This document shows positions 1,062 to 13,532 of a DNA stretch of 41,327 nt, one piece after another; within the stretch, counting starts at the first letter, position 1; each line of letters begins with the position of its first letter. Below the pieces are notes generated by a model, which did not search any database, had not been told where the DNA came from, and was given only the letters and a program-made list of their open reading frames with translations. A program made the translations under genes and the position numbers. This DNA comes from a virus. The stretch is taken from positions 1 to 41,327 of IMG/VR virus record IMGVR_UViG_3300033154_000500; one strand, written 5' to 3'.

Positions 1062-3329
1062 TTAATCCACCAATTGACGATGCCGATTGATTTTTTTTAG
1101 ACTTCCCCATCTTCTCCCTTCCTTAAAGTCCACCTCCAGAGGAATAATAAAATCCCTTGGTGCAACATTTTCCATTATATTTCTTATTTCCATAACCGCT
1201 ATATCTAGTATATTTTCCTCTACCATATAAACTATATCATCGTGTATTTGTATAAGGGGTTCTATTACCCCAATTTCACTTAGACTACGGTAGACCGGAA
1301 CTAATTGCCCCATGGCCTCCTTGATTACCCCCTGAGCACCCATTTGAATTGGGGCATTACCAGCCTGCCTCTCCGCTTCAATTCGAATCCAGCGATTAGT
1401 TGATCTTATCCCTGGGATATACCGGATTCGACCCCACATGTCTCGTACATAACCATAACGTTTTGCCTGTTCCCCATTTGCTTTCATATAGGTCGCAATC
1501 CCCCGATAAATATCAAACCAGGACCTAATCATCTCCTCACAATCGGAGATAGACCATCCCTCTGCCCCACCCACAGTTAATTCCCTCTGGAGACCTTCTG
1601 CCGTAATCAGGTTGAGGATACCAAACCCAACTCGTTTGGCCGGATACCTATGTTTCATTTCATCAAGTTGGGGAATAGGGACTCCAAACATTCTACTTGC
1701 TGTTATTGCATGGATATCTTCTCCTCGCCAAAAAATTCCCATCATAGTTTCATCTTTACTGTCATTGGCAGCAACCCTCATTTCAACCTGACTATAATCA
1801 CCTGAGAGGAAAACATTACCTTCCCCAGCAACATAACAGTCCCTCACCTTTCTTCCCTCCTCAGAACGGGTAGGCTGTGCCATCAAATTGGGTTTGCTGG
1901 AGCTTAATCGTCCAGTAGCCACACGGGTAATCCGTAATGTCGTCCGGATTCGCCCATCAGGAGAAACCAATTTGGGGATAGCGTCGGCATAGCTGGTCTT
2001 CAACTTCTGGTATTCCCTCCAATCCATTATGTCCTGAACTGAAGGATGTAGGTGAATATACCTCTTGAGGATATCTCCTGCTGTGGATTTGTTGGTTGCT
2101 CCCTTCTTGGATTTGAATTTTCCCCCCTTAAGGTGCAATTCCAGTCGATCATAGATCAAGGTGGACATCTGCAGATAGGATGCCGGATTGATTGCTTTTC
2201 CCCCCAATAAGTGTCCAATTGTCAATTGCATCTTCCTCTGGATTAAGTCCATCCTCCCCTGAAAGTAATCACTAAGGGAGGAGAAAGCAGGAAGGGAAAC
2301 TGGCATCCCATTGGCCATCATATCAACCACCATTGGGAGGGCAGCCATATCCCGCCAGAACGTACCCTCTAACCCAAGACTTAGGATTCGCTCCCATAGG
2401 ATGGGGTAGATTCTAATGGTGGCATCTGCATCCCGTGCCGAGTACCAAATGGCCTTATCACGTGGAATATCGGACAAGTCGGCCTCTTCAAGCACACCAA
2501 GCACAGATTCTGCTTGCCCTGTATCAGACATCTTCCTCCAACTATTATAAGGTTCGATATCCTTCCCAGCTTCAATTGCGGACAATACTCTCTGTATTTT
2601 CCTTTTAATGTTTTGTGGCTGTCGTACATGAGGTTCCCCCTTTTTCCATTCAAGAACAGGAGCGGGGTTTGGCCATTCCATTTCCATTACCCGTTCCAAA
2701 TAGGCAATTGCTTTCTTCCTTGTAGCATTTCCTACCATCTCTGGATAGGACGACATCTTCATGCCGCAATGTCGGAAAGCAAGGGGCTTCAACCCCTGCG
2801 GTTCATTTTGAAGTAGATAGGCCATTACCATTGTATCCGCCACCTTTCGAGGCCAGATGCCCATTCTAGCAAGGACAGGCAGATCGTAGAGGGCGTTCTG
2901 AATGATGGTGATAGTGTCTCCGTAATTCACAGCGGCGTTCAGGGCATCCAGTGCAGGCTTTTGGTCGGCCATGATCACGTGGGATTCTCCTGGGATTACG
3001 GAAAAGCTAAGACACCAAGGCTTTCCCTTTGCCCATTCTGTATCAATGGCGATTATTGATGCCCCTTCGGTAATATTGGCTACTCCGGCTAAACTGATAA
3101 CTTGGTCATAATTCTCCTTCCCCTCCCATTTATCTACTGGGGGATGGGGTTCAATTTCACCCTTAATGACCTTACCTACCATTACCATATCACATTGGAA
3201 CATGATCATTAATTCCGGTGAGTGTAATCCAGCAGCGGGATGGTAAGTAGGTATCCAAGTACACTCATGTCCGAGAAGATTTACTGGACGGGGGATGCCG
3301 TGCAAAAGCTCCATGGAAACATTACTCAT
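1062..3329 (-). CDS. dpoZ: Family A DNA polymerase (DpoZ-type) carrying the C-terminal end of a uracil-DNA glycosylase
   Basis: A 755-residue PolA-type polymerase with proofreading exonuclease and no 5'-3' exonuclease. Exo I is DTE at 96-98, Exo II N145/D149, Exo III Y296/D300. Polymerase motifs are TGRLSSSKPN (about 472-481), motif A DYSQVEMR (511-518), motif B R561/K565/F569, and motif C HDD (696-698). In motif B the Tyr of the usual FGLIYG is Asn (FGILN). Residues 10-35 (HG...TYHPAAGL) are not polymerase but match the C-terminal His motif of family 4 uracil-DNA glycosylases, whose N-terminal part is two genes upstream; the HNH gene between them appears to have split a UDG-polymerase fusion. 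The start has AGGAGA 7 nt upstream, inside the HNH gene end. With PurZ and MazZ present it is a candidate aminoadenine-preferring DpoZ; polymerase identity is certain, Z preference inferred. Confidence 0.93.
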   Translation of the reverse strand: MSNVSMELLHGIPRPVNLLGHECTWIPTYHPAAGLHSPELMIMFQCDMVMVGKVIKGEIEPHPPVDKWEGKENYDQVISLAGVANITEGASIIAIDTEWAKGKPWCLSFSVIPGESHVIMADQKPALDALNAAVNYGDTITIIQNALYDLPVLARMGIWPRKVADTMVMAYLLQNEPQGLKPLAFRHCGMKMSSYPEMVGNATRKKAIAYLERVMEMEWPNPAPVLEWKKGEPHVRQPQNIKRKIQRVLSAIEAGKDIEPYNSWRKMSDTGQAESVLGVLEEADLSDIPRDKAIWYSARDADATIRIYPILWERILSLGLEGTFWRDMAALPMVVDMMANGMPVSLPAFSSLSDYFQGRMDLIQRKMQLTIGHLLGGKAINPASYLQMSTLIYDRLELHLKGGKFKSKKGATNKSTAGDILKRYIHLHPSVQDIMDWREYQKLKTSYADAIPKLVSPDGRIRTTLRITRVATGRLSSSKPNLMAQPTRSEEGRKVRDCYVAGEGNVFLSGDYSQVEMRVAANDSKDETMMGIFWRGEDIHAITASRMFGVPIPQLDEMKHRYPAKRVGFGILNLITAEGLQRELTVGGAEGWSISDCEEMIRSWFDIYRGIATYMKANGEQAKRYGYVRDMWGRIRYIPGIRSTNRWIRIEAERQAGNAPIQMGAQGVIKEAMGQLVPVYRSLSEIGVIEPLIQIHDDIVYMVEENILDIAVMEIRNIMENVAPRDFIIPLEVDFKEGRRWGSLKKINRHRQLVD

Positions 3330-3714
3330 TGTCTATTCTCCTATGTAGCACTAAATGGCAGTTTGCACACAGTAGTTCTATTTCACTGGGAAAATTGTTT
3401 TCTACTAACCATTTATAAAATCCGTAGTCACTTCCTGTTATCCTTCTATGCTCTTTCCCTCCTCCATTAACGTGATGAAATACTAAAGTTTCCGACCTAT
3501 TTTCCCCACACACAGAACACTTACCACCATAACCCTCTATCGCTTTCCCTAGCCATTTGTCGAATAGCTTTTTGCGTCTTTCCCTACTCCTCTGGTTCGC
3601 CCCTGTCTTGTTCTCTATATACCATAATTTGTGCTGCCTTCTTAATTTCTCTTTATTCTTTTGTCTATAATCTTTGTCATATTCATTCTTTTCCTGTTTA
3701 TTCTTATAGGGCAT
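3322..3714 (-). CDS. HNH homing endonuclease inserted in the UDG-polymerase gene
   Basis: A 130-residue protein with a basic N-terminal half and a C-terminal HNH nuclease: CSVCG (first zinc pair), FHHVNGGG (catalytic His-His and Asn), LLCANCHLVLHR (second zinc pair and last His). Its ATG overlaps the stop of the UDG N-terminal fragment, and its stop overlaps the polymerase start (AATGAGTAATG), so it fills the break between the two UDG halves exactly. Free-standing HNH enzymes of this kind cut and spread into phage genes. There is little room for an intron beyond the ORF, so a plain intercistronic insertion is more likely. Confidence 0.9.
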   Translation of the reverse strand: MPYKNKQEKNEYDKDYRQKNKEKLRRQHKLWYIENKTGANQRSRERRKKLFDKWLGKAIEGYGGKCSVCGENRSETLVFHHVNGGGKEHRRITGSDYGFYKWLVENNFPSEIELLCANCHLVLHRRIDNE

Positions 3715-4139
3715 TAGTATTTTCCCTCCTGAATATCCTGTATGACTTGTGCAGCTATTCTCCCCATTGTAATGATGTATTTTGGCTGCAACTTCAAAAT
3801 AGTAGGGATTAAGTGATTAGTAACGCAATTCCGGATTTCCTCAGCAGATGGGTCACGGTTTCCTTCAGGATGACAACGGATTATATTGTCCAACCAGACA
3901 CCCAAGCGACTAATCCCATTAATATCCAGATGGTGTCTTGCCTCTTCCCCACTCACTCCGATAAGAGGTCGGCCAGTCCTATCCTCCTCAATCCCAGGAG
4001 CTTCAGCGATTACCATGACCTGAGGGTTATTCGTTGGGGATATAAAATGAATTTCCCCCTCAACGATTTGCTTTCGGGATTGGACGAGGGCAGGGCATAG
4101 CTGGCAATTCCTCGTTCTTTTTTTTCTGGGTGTTGACAT
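3714..4139 (-). CDS. Uracil-DNA glycosylase family 4, N-terminal fragment
   Basis: 141 residues of the Fe-S uracil-DNA glycosylase family. Seen: C12 and C15, C89 and C105 as likely [4Fe-4S] ligands; IAEAPGIEEDRTGRPL (44-59), the active-site loop; IIRCHPEGNRDP (86-97); and PKYIITMGRIAAQ (119-131). The family's final His motif (HPAA) is missing here but present at residues 30-33 of the polymerase ORF. Reading GKY straight into SNVSMELLHG gives the normal family spacing, so the protein is cut rather than decayed. It may still act as a split enzyme with the polymerase-borne piece. AAGGA 7 nt before the ATG is the likely binding site. The first codons coincide with a dispersed repeat. Confidence 0.85.
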   Translation of the reverse strand: MSTPRKKRTRNCQLCPALVQSRKQIVEGEIHFISPTNNPQVMVIAEAPGIEEDRTGRPLIGVSGEEARHHLDINGISRLGVWLDNIIRCHPEGNRDPSAEEIRNCVTNHLIPTILKLQPKYIITMGRIAAQVIQDIQEGKY

Positions 4140-4147
4140 TTGTGTGT
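4111..4147 (+). repeat. Dispersed repeat, copy 1
   Basis: The 37-bp element begins CTCGTTC, continues with a T8 tract, then CTGGGTGTTGACATTTGTG, and is followed by TTGTGCGC (4150-4157). Near-copies lie at 18505 and 28456. This copy overlaps the first codons of the UDG gene, read on the other strand. Function unknown. Confidence 0.8.
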
Positions 4148-4182
4148 CCTTGTGCGCTGTGTCCTGTGCGCTGAGTATTAAG

Positions 4183-4689
4183 TTAATCTGGTAACAAAAT
4201 CTGTATTTCCACCTGAAATTTCCTGCAGAATCGGAAGAGACCTATTAAGGTTTGTTCCTCCTTTGTTACATAGTCATTCCCGTATGGATTGTTCATATAC
4301 TCCCAGCCTTCACCACTGGCATAGGCAAATAGTGCCCACCAAGAAGGTGGCATAATTATAAGCCCAAGTTTATCAGCCCAGCATAACCGACTTGGTTGTG
4401 TATCAAATATTGCTGATAGATGTCTGGAGTGCCATGTAATTTCTTTTCTAACAGTATTAAATCTGGAATTGTCAAAATAGGACGGAAAGAAGAATGGGTG
4501 CATTGACCCATCCGGACCATCTATAGATTCACAACCCCAATAACCCCAATCATGGAAGAAAATAGCAAGTAGTACTTGGAAATTGATACTTCCCCAGCCA
4601 TACAACTTGACCCATCCGATTAAGGTAAATAGTGGATGTAATAGAATTTGATGGCAACCAAAGAGTAAAGATCTAGTCCCTAATTTCAT
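4183..4689 (-). CDS. datZ: HD-domain phosphohydrolase, candidate DatZ (dATP triphosphohydrolase)
   Basis: A 168-residue single-domain protein with the HD metal-site pattern: H13 in GCHQILLHP, H46-D47 in FFHDWGYWG, further His at 64, 87 and 90, and D106 in CWADKLG. Size and H...HD...D order fit the small phage HD enzymes, including DatZ of aminoadenine phages, which strips triphosphate from dATP so that the polymerase uses dZTP. The nearby PurZ and MazZ genes make this the likely role, but HD proteins have varied substrates. A GTG at 4698 with AAGGA upstream is an alternative start adding three residues. It overlaps the end of the small gene upstream. Confidence 0.75.
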   Translation of the reverse strand: MKLGTRSLLFGCHQILLHPLFTLIGWVKLYGWGSINFQVLLAIFFHDWGYWGCESIDGPDGSMHPFFFPSYFDNSRFNTVRKEITWHSRHLSAIFDTQPSRLCWADKLGLIIMPPSWWALFAYASGEGWEYMNNPYGNDYVTKEEQTLIGLFRFCRKFQVEIQILLPD

Positions 4690-11933: not shown

Positions 11934-11946
11934 AATGGAGGATAAT

Positions 11947-13041
11947 ATGATACCAAAGGGTAAATTTTCAGTAATTATTGGGAGCCAAGCAGGGAGCGAA
12001 AGCAAGGGAAAACTCAGTGGTTGGCTTTGTGACAAGTATAAACCAGATCTACTCGTAATGACCAGTTCACCCAATGCTGGACATACAGTAGTAACACCCG
12101 AGGGGAAGAAAAAAGTAAGCTATCATTTGCCAATTGGCGCAGTTATGTGTGACTGCCCTATCGTGCTTGGTCCAGCCAGTCTAATCAATCCTTTTACCTT
12201 TAGGAAGGAAATAAAGGATTTGGGGATTGAACCATCAAGGATCACATTGGATTCTAGGGCATCAATAATCACTCAAAGCCATATTGGTGAGGAAACCAAG
12301 GGCCGCCTTAGTGATATTGGTTCCACATTGCAGGGAATTGGGGCATGCAGAACAGGAAAAATGAGAAGGGATGGCAAACATGAATTTGCCCTTGACTGGA
12401 AAGAGAAGTTGGAGGATATAGGGATAACAGTTATACCCTATACTACTGACATCATCAATAGCAGACTTGCTAGAAACGAGCGGGTTCTGTGTGAAACGAC
12501 CCAGGGATTTGACCTTTGCCTTGAACATGGAATTGACCCAACTCATTGCACTAGCAAAATTATAAGTCCTGCAATGGCAATGGCCGAGGCCGGAGTTGCT
12601 CCTTCTCGTATTGGTAACATTTTTGGTGTTGTTAGGCCTTTCCCAATCAGGGTGAATAATCGGACTGGTAATAGCGGAGGATATCAGGAAGCAAGGGAAA
12701 TTTCATGGCAGGATATTGCAAGAAGGTGCGGATATCCAGGTAATAATGAGGATTTTGGGGAAATTACTACTACTACTAAATTACCCCGACGGGTCTTCAA
12801 TTTTTCTTGGGTCCGGTTTGCCCAATTTCTTCAGATTTGTAGGCCAACATCCCTCTGTCTCCAATTTGCCAATTATATTGATTGGGGTGCATATAAAGCG
12901 AAGGAATGGGATGCTTTGCCCTCATCAGTAGTTAATTTTATCCTGGTACTCTCCAAGCAAGTATCTGTGAATTTTGTTGGAACTGGGCCGGACCATGAGG
13001 ACATGATTGAAGTTGGGCTAGCCAGTAGGAGGATGGAATAA
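11947..13041 (+). CDS. purZ: PurZ: N6-succino-2-aminoadenylate synthase (PurA homologue)
   Basis: 364 residues of the adenylosuccinate synthetase family. The P-loop region is GSQAGSESKGK (12-22), where PurA has GDEGKGK: the catalytic Asp (E. coli D13) is Ser17 here. The partner His is kept (H46 in NAGHT). The phage enzyme would join aspartate to dGMP, giving the precursor that host PurB converts to 2-amino-dAMP. Asp loss at this site is a recognised mark of PurZ. It is shorter than bacterial PurA (about 430). The ATG at 11947 is preferred over 11935 because GGAGGA lies between them at correct spacing. Its stop overlaps the mazZ start, so both are co-translated. Confidence 0.9.
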   Translation: MIPKGKFSVIIGSQAGSESKGKLSGWLCDKYKPDLLVMTSSPNAGHTVVTPEGKKKVSYHLPIGAVMCDCPIVLGPASLINPFTFRKEIKDLGIEPSRITLDSRASIITQSHIGEETKGRLSDIGSTLQGIGACRTGKMRRDGKHEFALDWKEKLEDIGITVIPYTTDIINSRLARNERVLCETTQGFDLCLEHGIDPTHCTSKIISPAMAMAEAGVAPSRIGNIFGVVRPFPIRVNNRTGNSGGYQEAREISWQDIARRCGYPGNNEDFGEITTTTKLPRRVFNFSWVRFAQFLQICRPTSLCLQFANYIDWGAYKAKEWDALPSSVVNFILVLSKQVSVNFVGTGPDHEDMIEVGLASRRME

Positions 13042-13532
13042 TGAAATCGGAGAACATACTGGATGGGGCAGAGGATAAGCGTACTGATCCCAAACATGGC
13101 TGCGGTTATATTCCTTTTGCCTACCATCTAATTCCTCTGGAAGGGTTGGCAAAGGTGGCCTCCGTTATGAAAGCAGGAGAGGACAGAGGGGATAATTGGA
13201 GAAAAATGCCAATTGAGGAACATCTCAATCATGCTATATCCCATATTGTAGGTTATCTTAAGGGGCGACATGCTGATCATCACTTGGCAAATGCATGCTG
13301 CAGGGTACTTATGGCGTTGGATTTGGATGAGAAGGAAGTATTGCCCTGCCCTTCTTTGGGACCGGACTGGGCAGGAGTAGAGATTAGTGATGAAATAGAT
13401 CTTGCCTATTCTATAAAGGAAACATTCGATGATTGTATGGCTAAAGTAGCAGTTAAGGGGACAGGAAAACAAACAAAAACGGACAGGAGAAGAGGAGACC
13501 GGCGGAAGGAAGAAGAGGAACCCTTTCCTTAG
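13041..13532 (+). CDS. mazZ: MazZ-type dATP/dGTP pyrophosphohydrolase
   Basis: 163 residues. The core (about 18-95) has the pattern of the phage dATP/dGTP diphosphohydrolase N-terminal family: FAYHLIPLEGLAKVASVM, GEDRGDNWRKMPIEEHLNHA and HIVGYLKGRHADHHLANAC. In aminoadenine phages this kind of enzyme turns dGTP into dGMP, the substrate of PurZ. The tail (about 140-163) is a charged RRRGDRRKEEEE stretch. The ATG overlaps the purZ stop (TAATGA). An intrinsic terminator follows directly. Family assignment is from memory of the motif; catalytic residues are not individually certain. Confidence 0.8.
   Translation: MKSENILDGAEDKRTDPKHGCGYIPFAYHLIPLEGLAKVASVMKAGEDRGDNWRKMPIEEHLNHAISHIVGYLKGRHADHHLANACCRVLMALDLDEKEVLPCPSLGPDWAGVEISDEIDLAYSIKETFDDCMAKVAVKGTGKQTKTDRRRGDRRKEEEEPFP

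Follow-up and report, generated by a model that had tools for sequence, protein, structure and literature searches.

Splitting of host genes by endonuclease genes is rare but already known, and experimentally studied cases in which the split gene stays functional are few; those that we found in the literature come from T4-like phages. In Aeromonas phage Aeh1 nrdA is split by mobE, and a review of T4-like phages describes the split products as active as two chains (PMC2988022, citing Friedrich 2007); according to a second paper, the Aeh1 alpha subunit consists of two polypeptides, for whose assembly it refers to Crona 2011 (PMC3267527). T4 gene 60 is split by mobA, and for gene 43 of Aeromonas phage 25 the review describes, with less certainty than for mobE and mobA, a seg insertion splitting the gene, whose products 43A and 43B are active as two chains and co-purify with polymerase activity (PMC2988022).

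The locus described here lies in a 41,327-nucleotide stretch of viral DNA (IMG/VR record IMGVR_UViG_3300033154_000500; hereafter the window, meaning the whole stretch analysed) and is a gene fission by a free-standing endonuclease of probable homing type, like those of Aeh1 nrdA/mobE and T4 gene 60/mobA. What is new is the victim, a fused uracil-DNA glycosylase (UDG) and family-A polymerase gene (UDG-PolA), and the position of the cut, inside the accessory repair domain. With its nrdA-a/mobE/nrdA-b arrangement, Aeh1 shares with the window a free-standing HNH gene that interrupts a functionally critical part of an enzyme gene and leaves two flanking ORFs; the enzymes differ (ribonucleotide reductase as against UDG-PolA), and the split Aeh1 enzyme is active as two chains, which for that of the window is likely. 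The T4 topoisomerase gene 39/60 is comparable in that a Mob-type HNH gene splits a DNA-metabolism gene into separately coded subunits; gene 60 also has a separate translational bypass, whereas none is needed in the window. In phage 25, too, a homing endonuclease gene marks the place where the replicative DNA polymerase is split, but there a family B polymerase is itself cut, by a GIY-YIG seg gene, whereas in the window it is the UDG that is cut and the exonuclease-polymerase that stays whole. A UDG-like domain and a family-A polymerase in one uninterrupted chain are found in Thermus phage phiLo (PDB 9qhs), Rhizobium phage RHph_TM30 and Lebethron. The first-pass annotation of the window had also pointed to a UDG-like N-terminal domain and an HNH intron in the SPO1 DNA polymerase, for which a literature search gave no confirmation.

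Layout of the divided gene

1062 to 3329, minus strand: polymerase ORF, 755 aa (Pfam, NCBIfam, alignment), with the C-part of the UDG in residues 1-50, a linker, a 3'-5' exonuclease from about residue 84 and the family-A polymerase at about 366-742
3322 to 3714, minus strand: HNH endonuclease gene, 130 aa (PHROG HNH families), with CSVCGEN...FHHVNGGG...CANCHLVLHR intact
3330 to 3740, minus strand: inserted element, about 411 nt (sequence and junction alignment; ends within a codon or two), made up of an 8-codon tail, an RBS, the HNH gene and the RBS of the polymerase half
3333 to 3341, minus strand: GGAGAATAG, right-hand unit of a 9-nt direct repeat around the insertion (significance modest)
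3338 to 3342, minus strand: AGGAG, RBS of the polymerase half, 8 nt 5' of its ATG and within the 3' end of the HNH gene (sequence)
3714 to 4139, minus strand: N-half of the UDG, ORF of 141 aa (PF03167, NF040953 and alignment to intact relatives)
3725 to 3730, minus strand: AGGAGG, RBS of the HNH gene, 10 nt 5' of its ATG (sequence)
3741 to 4139, minus strand: native part of the UDG N-half, ending ...GRIAAQVI (gap-free alignment to intact relatives)
3755 to 3763, minus strand: GGAGAATAG, left-hand unit of the 9-nt direct repeat, in the UDG codons G-R-I-A

The three minus-strand ORFs lie where the first-pass annotation had placed them and follow one another head to tail, from UDG N-half to HNH to polymerase. 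As it had also said, the HNH gene overlaps both neighbours: its start shares the common A of TAATG (1 nt) with the stop of the UDG half, and its stop overlaps the polymerase start by 8 nt in ATGAGTAA. Both halves of the UDG are in one reading frame, with many stops between them. A search for sigma-70 promoters inside the region found none, and hairpins at the two new starts are no stronger than those of shuffled sequences (z -0.3 and -1.1).

The profile matches divide along the same lines. PF03167 (UDG) matches the 141-aa ORF with an E-value of 2.4e-17 and stops at profile position 99 (6-99 of 141), so that this ORF is without the end of the UDG domain; the last His motif, which the annotation had found missing here, is present as HPAAG at residues 30-34 of the polymerase ORF. 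The latter also matches PF00476 (DNA_pol_A, E 2.4e-87) and PF01612 (exonuclease, E 2.8e-13). The type-4 UDG model NF040953 matches the 141-aa ORF over profile positions 6-130 (9e-29) and residues 5-51 of the polymerase ORF, weakly (E 0.011), over 136-182, and the two ORFs therefore hold consecutive pieces of one UDG domain. Position 590 of the phrog_17 profile corresponds to polymerase residue 10, a point across which the intact relative P0001 is continuous. About 133 residues of the N-half (1-133) are native; the remaining QDIQEGKY (134-141) is a tail gained with the insert and is not UDG sequence.

Intact relatives and the junction

Relatives gathered from viral and genome contigs that cover the region carry UDG-PolA as a single unbroken gene, whether they are phages about 55-60% identical or distant isolates. 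Its ORF is 881 aa long in L001 and L012, 888 in L003, L004 and L013, 875 in L014 and 884 in L005-L007 and L015-L016 (L007 ends at the contig end); L017, L019, L020, L024 and the partial L022 are also uninterrupted, as are the single ORFs of two distant phages, Pseudomonas phage Lebethron (L031) and MW202455 (L032). UDG matches lie under polymerase annotations in Rhizobium phages and in phiLo, whose family-A DNA polymerase has been solved (PDB 9qhs) and matches the UDG profile and model at its N-terminus. Since the relatives, distant phages among them, are fused, the fused UDG-PolA state is ancestral. An HNH gene at the UDG-PolA site is present in one contig only, the window. The proposal that such a fusion had been broken by the HNH gene holds up: relatives free of HNH at the site have one fused ORF, the alignment of the two halves to intact phage fusions gives a continuous UDG-PolA, and the HPAA stretch, for which a comparison with the polymerase had been set beforehand, aligns with the UDG and not with the polymerase. 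From the first and last of these findings, interruption of an ancestral fusion by the HNH insert is a well-supported reading of the sequences, and the split itself is near certain.

Two contigs depart from the uninterrupted pattern in other ways. One (L021) has a single-frame UDG-polymerase, in a frame from about 3159, in whose UDG a long in-frame insert separates the HG motif from HPAS. The other, from a Latescibacteria bin (L025:3995-7521), encodes a complete UDG and the polymerase in two genes that stand about 1 kb apart, with several small ORFs in the interval.

The first-pass annotation was right that joining the halves restores the UDG but misplaced the join. Its GKY-SNV junction is about 7 residues too long, giving a GR-to-HG spacing of 22 residues as against 15 in close intact relatives; the true junction lies 7-8 codons upstream, where GRIAAQVI|MSNVSMELLHG of the joined window halves aligns gap-free with GRLSTRFF|LGDVSMELVHG of L012. 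The same holds for nearly all close relatives, L019 having one extra residue, and the gap-free join at QVI|MSNV puts the insert at about 411 nt, from 3740 to 3330. The HNH ORF has a GC content of 0.377, lower than the 0.453 and 0.461 of the halves on either side. The 9-nt direct repeat GGAGAATAG that flanks the insert is perhaps left over from the insertion; it is weak evidence, because random pairs of 40-nt stretches from the region share at least 9 bases in 0.7% of cases and its position was picked post hoc.

The HNH gene and its relatives

The Pfam HNH model matches the inserted ORF weakly (0.062), and several PHROG HNH families match it, the best at 2.6e-14; phrog_2255 covers residues 10-128, and the residues CxxC...HH...CxNC are intact. 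Genes 33-36% identical to it stand elsewhere in sister phages, just before an AAA_24 gene in L019 and before an ERCC4-domain gene in L005-L007, and the UDG-polymerase genes of these phages are whole in the sequence that the contigs cover. A profile scan of viral contigs gave 90 HNH relatives, 80 of which were kept, and in none of the 80 loci does the HNH gene lie between a UDG and a polymerase. Pfam scans of the neighbours at ten loci (both sides in eight, one side in two) found the same family on both flanks at a single locus and no shared family at the rest. At that single locus, the HNH relative at L044:2929-3423 splits an N6/N4 DNA methyltransferase gene: the upstream ORF matches residues 3-138 of the methyltransferase of virus Drs3 and the downstream ORF matches from residue 132 on. 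The downstream half at this locus (L044:2416-5419) also has two long inserts relative to Drs3, at about residues 77-322 and 377-630.

Related HNH genes thus occupy different sites in related genomes, as members of a mobile family do, and with one of them splitting a methyltransferase they form a scattered family that occasionally cuts genes. We infer from family resemblance and distribution that the HNH gene of the window encodes a homing endonuclease. A relative of it is also annotated in the phage records H81-H89, which are Arthrobacter phage Wayne and its relatives; Wayne is one of the phages for which 2-aminoadenine DNA has been reported.

Competing explanations and the probable two-chain enzyme

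Very probably, an ancestral UDG-PolA gene was cut by the HNH insertion into separately made pieces, which would probably need to reassemble for activity. The locus has what defines a gene in pieces, with an intact single gene in relatives that lack the insert and an endonuclease ORF between two separately started halves, free of any self-splicing element. Two other histories have been weighed against this. HNH ORFs are common in phage introns, the length of the insert is divisible by three, and a cut read by hand after GAT...AATG would bring the frame back at the cost of one added residue, so a group I (or II) intron whose splicing yields a single protein has some appeal; we nevertheless hold it to be very improbable, because an Rfam search of 2800-4400 with permissive filters gives no match at E <= 10, the start and stop signals fit separate translation and the relatives of the window's HNH gene are free-standing. 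Moreover, HNH coding fills nearly all of the roughly 411 nt and is protein-like throughout, and this frame and its protein similarity leave no room for a ribozyme core; a group I intron with an HNH ORF was rejected for want of such a core in the Rfam search of 2800-4400. Read-through and an intein are excluded by the many stops of the UDG frame across the insert. The other history, in which UDG and polymerase were separate from the beginning and fused later in the relatives, could point to the separate genes of L025. However, the break in L025 is at the domain linker and leaves the UDG whole, whereas that of the window falls within the UDG fold, whose C part remains attached to the polymerase; L025 is for this reason a different arrangement, a second, independent fission. 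With the distant outgroups fused as well, we give ancestral separation next to no credence.

The remaining alternative accepts fission by the HNH gene as the origin and concerns only its outcome: the UDG would be dead, its N-half a remnant, and the polymerase would work alone with a useless N-terminal stub. UDG activity may be dispensable for the phage, and the insertion may be too recent for visible decay, the composition of the HNH gene still being unlike that of host genes. On the other hand, all 30 of the N-half columns that are invariant in eight intact relatives are kept in the window, as is HPAAG, all ORFs are open with good ribosome-binding sites, and the branches show no acceleration. 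The ratio of UDG N-half to exonuclease-polymerase branch lengths is 1.14 in the window and 0.82-2.42 in intact relatives, in a tree with low support at deep branches, which shows no faster evolution of the N-half. Among the invariant columns of the C-part, 14 of 16 are kept, one of the changes being the new start Met. A dead UDG is hence the less favoured outcome, though one to be taken seriously: if the insertion is recent, as it may be, the conservation of residues tells little of present function.

We lean towards the reading that the two chains form one UDG with the N-half docked on the polymerase chain, and hold it no more firmly because a recent insertion would look the same. The features of a family-4 UDG are present across the two chains, with UDG scores below the curated NCBIfam cut-offs for type-4 assignment. 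Motif A (AEAPGIEED, with the GEAPG-like AEAPG) and the Fe-S-type cysteines C12, C15, C89 and C105, which align with the four invariant cysteines of the relatives, are on the N-half; HG at residues 10-11 and the HPA motif with the catalytic His, within HPAAG at 30-34, are on the polymerase chain. With these elements so divided, glycosylase activity would need docking. The UDG profile matches to structures are 4zbx and 1ui0, and 1ui0 is also a fold match (TM 0.77-0.80). On the predicted structure of the domain in an intact relative (pLDDT 87), the split falls at F128|L129, at the end of helix 122-129 with a loop after it, leaving strands 36-40, 76-80 and 116-120 to the N-half and two strands with the last helices to the polymerase chain. 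Modelled alone, the N-half is predicted as an ordered fold (pLDDT 86, pTM 0.80) in which the QDIQEGKY tail lengthens the preceding helix.

We picture the fission as follows. A compact mobile HNH gene interrupted the ancestral gene for a family-4-type UDG and family-A polymerase inside the UDG domain, supplying a stop codon for the upstream half and its own RBS; its 3' end supplied a second RBS and an ATG that, if these signals are used in translation, restart the downstream half in the original frame. The three overlapping ORFs are probably co-translated from one message, and the N-half would bind to the polymerase chain and so make the UDG fold complete. The HNH enzyme, if it behaves like its family, probably nicks the intact alleles of relatives that infect the same cell, and by this means spreads together with its flanks.

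The window offers a further context. At 11935-13041 on the plus strand it encodes a PurZ-like adenylosuccinate synthetase (NF038379, 3.8e-52, under the cut-off), adjoined at 13041-13532 (plus strand) by a DUF5664 (PF18909) protein. The PurA motif carries a catalytic Asp, in place of which the PurZ-like protein has Ser (GSQAGSESKGK). The profile phrog_1211 also matches in 6 of 14 contigs searched, but the PurA of all control genomes matched too. The polymerase stays below the cut-offs of both models for the aminoadenine polymerase DpoZ (NF038380, 78.9 bits against 500; NF038381, 48.2 against 350). PurZ and DUF5664 gene types have been described for phages with 2-aminoadenine DNA (PMC12884076), and as a lead rather than a result, the window phage may use such DNA, its PolA being fused to a UDG and falling outside both DpoZ models. 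We speculate, tentatively, that an HNH family with restart signals at its 3' end repeatedly enters catalytic domains of phage DNA-modifying enzymes, here the UDG-polymerase and in L044 the methyltransferase, and turns them into obligate two-chain enzymes, in our case with the UDG halves meeting on a replicative polymerase whose phage perhaps has 2-aminoadenine DNA.

To the cases from T4-like phages the window adds a clean one from a different phage group, in which the victim is new, the junction is mapped and intact relatives are at hand for comparison; a second case comes from the same HNH family. The split UDG is natural material for reassembly tests, and the locus illustrates that an insert which provides restart signals need not kill the gene that it enters. 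Separate 'UDG' and 'polymerase' annotations can turn out to be halves of one enzyme.
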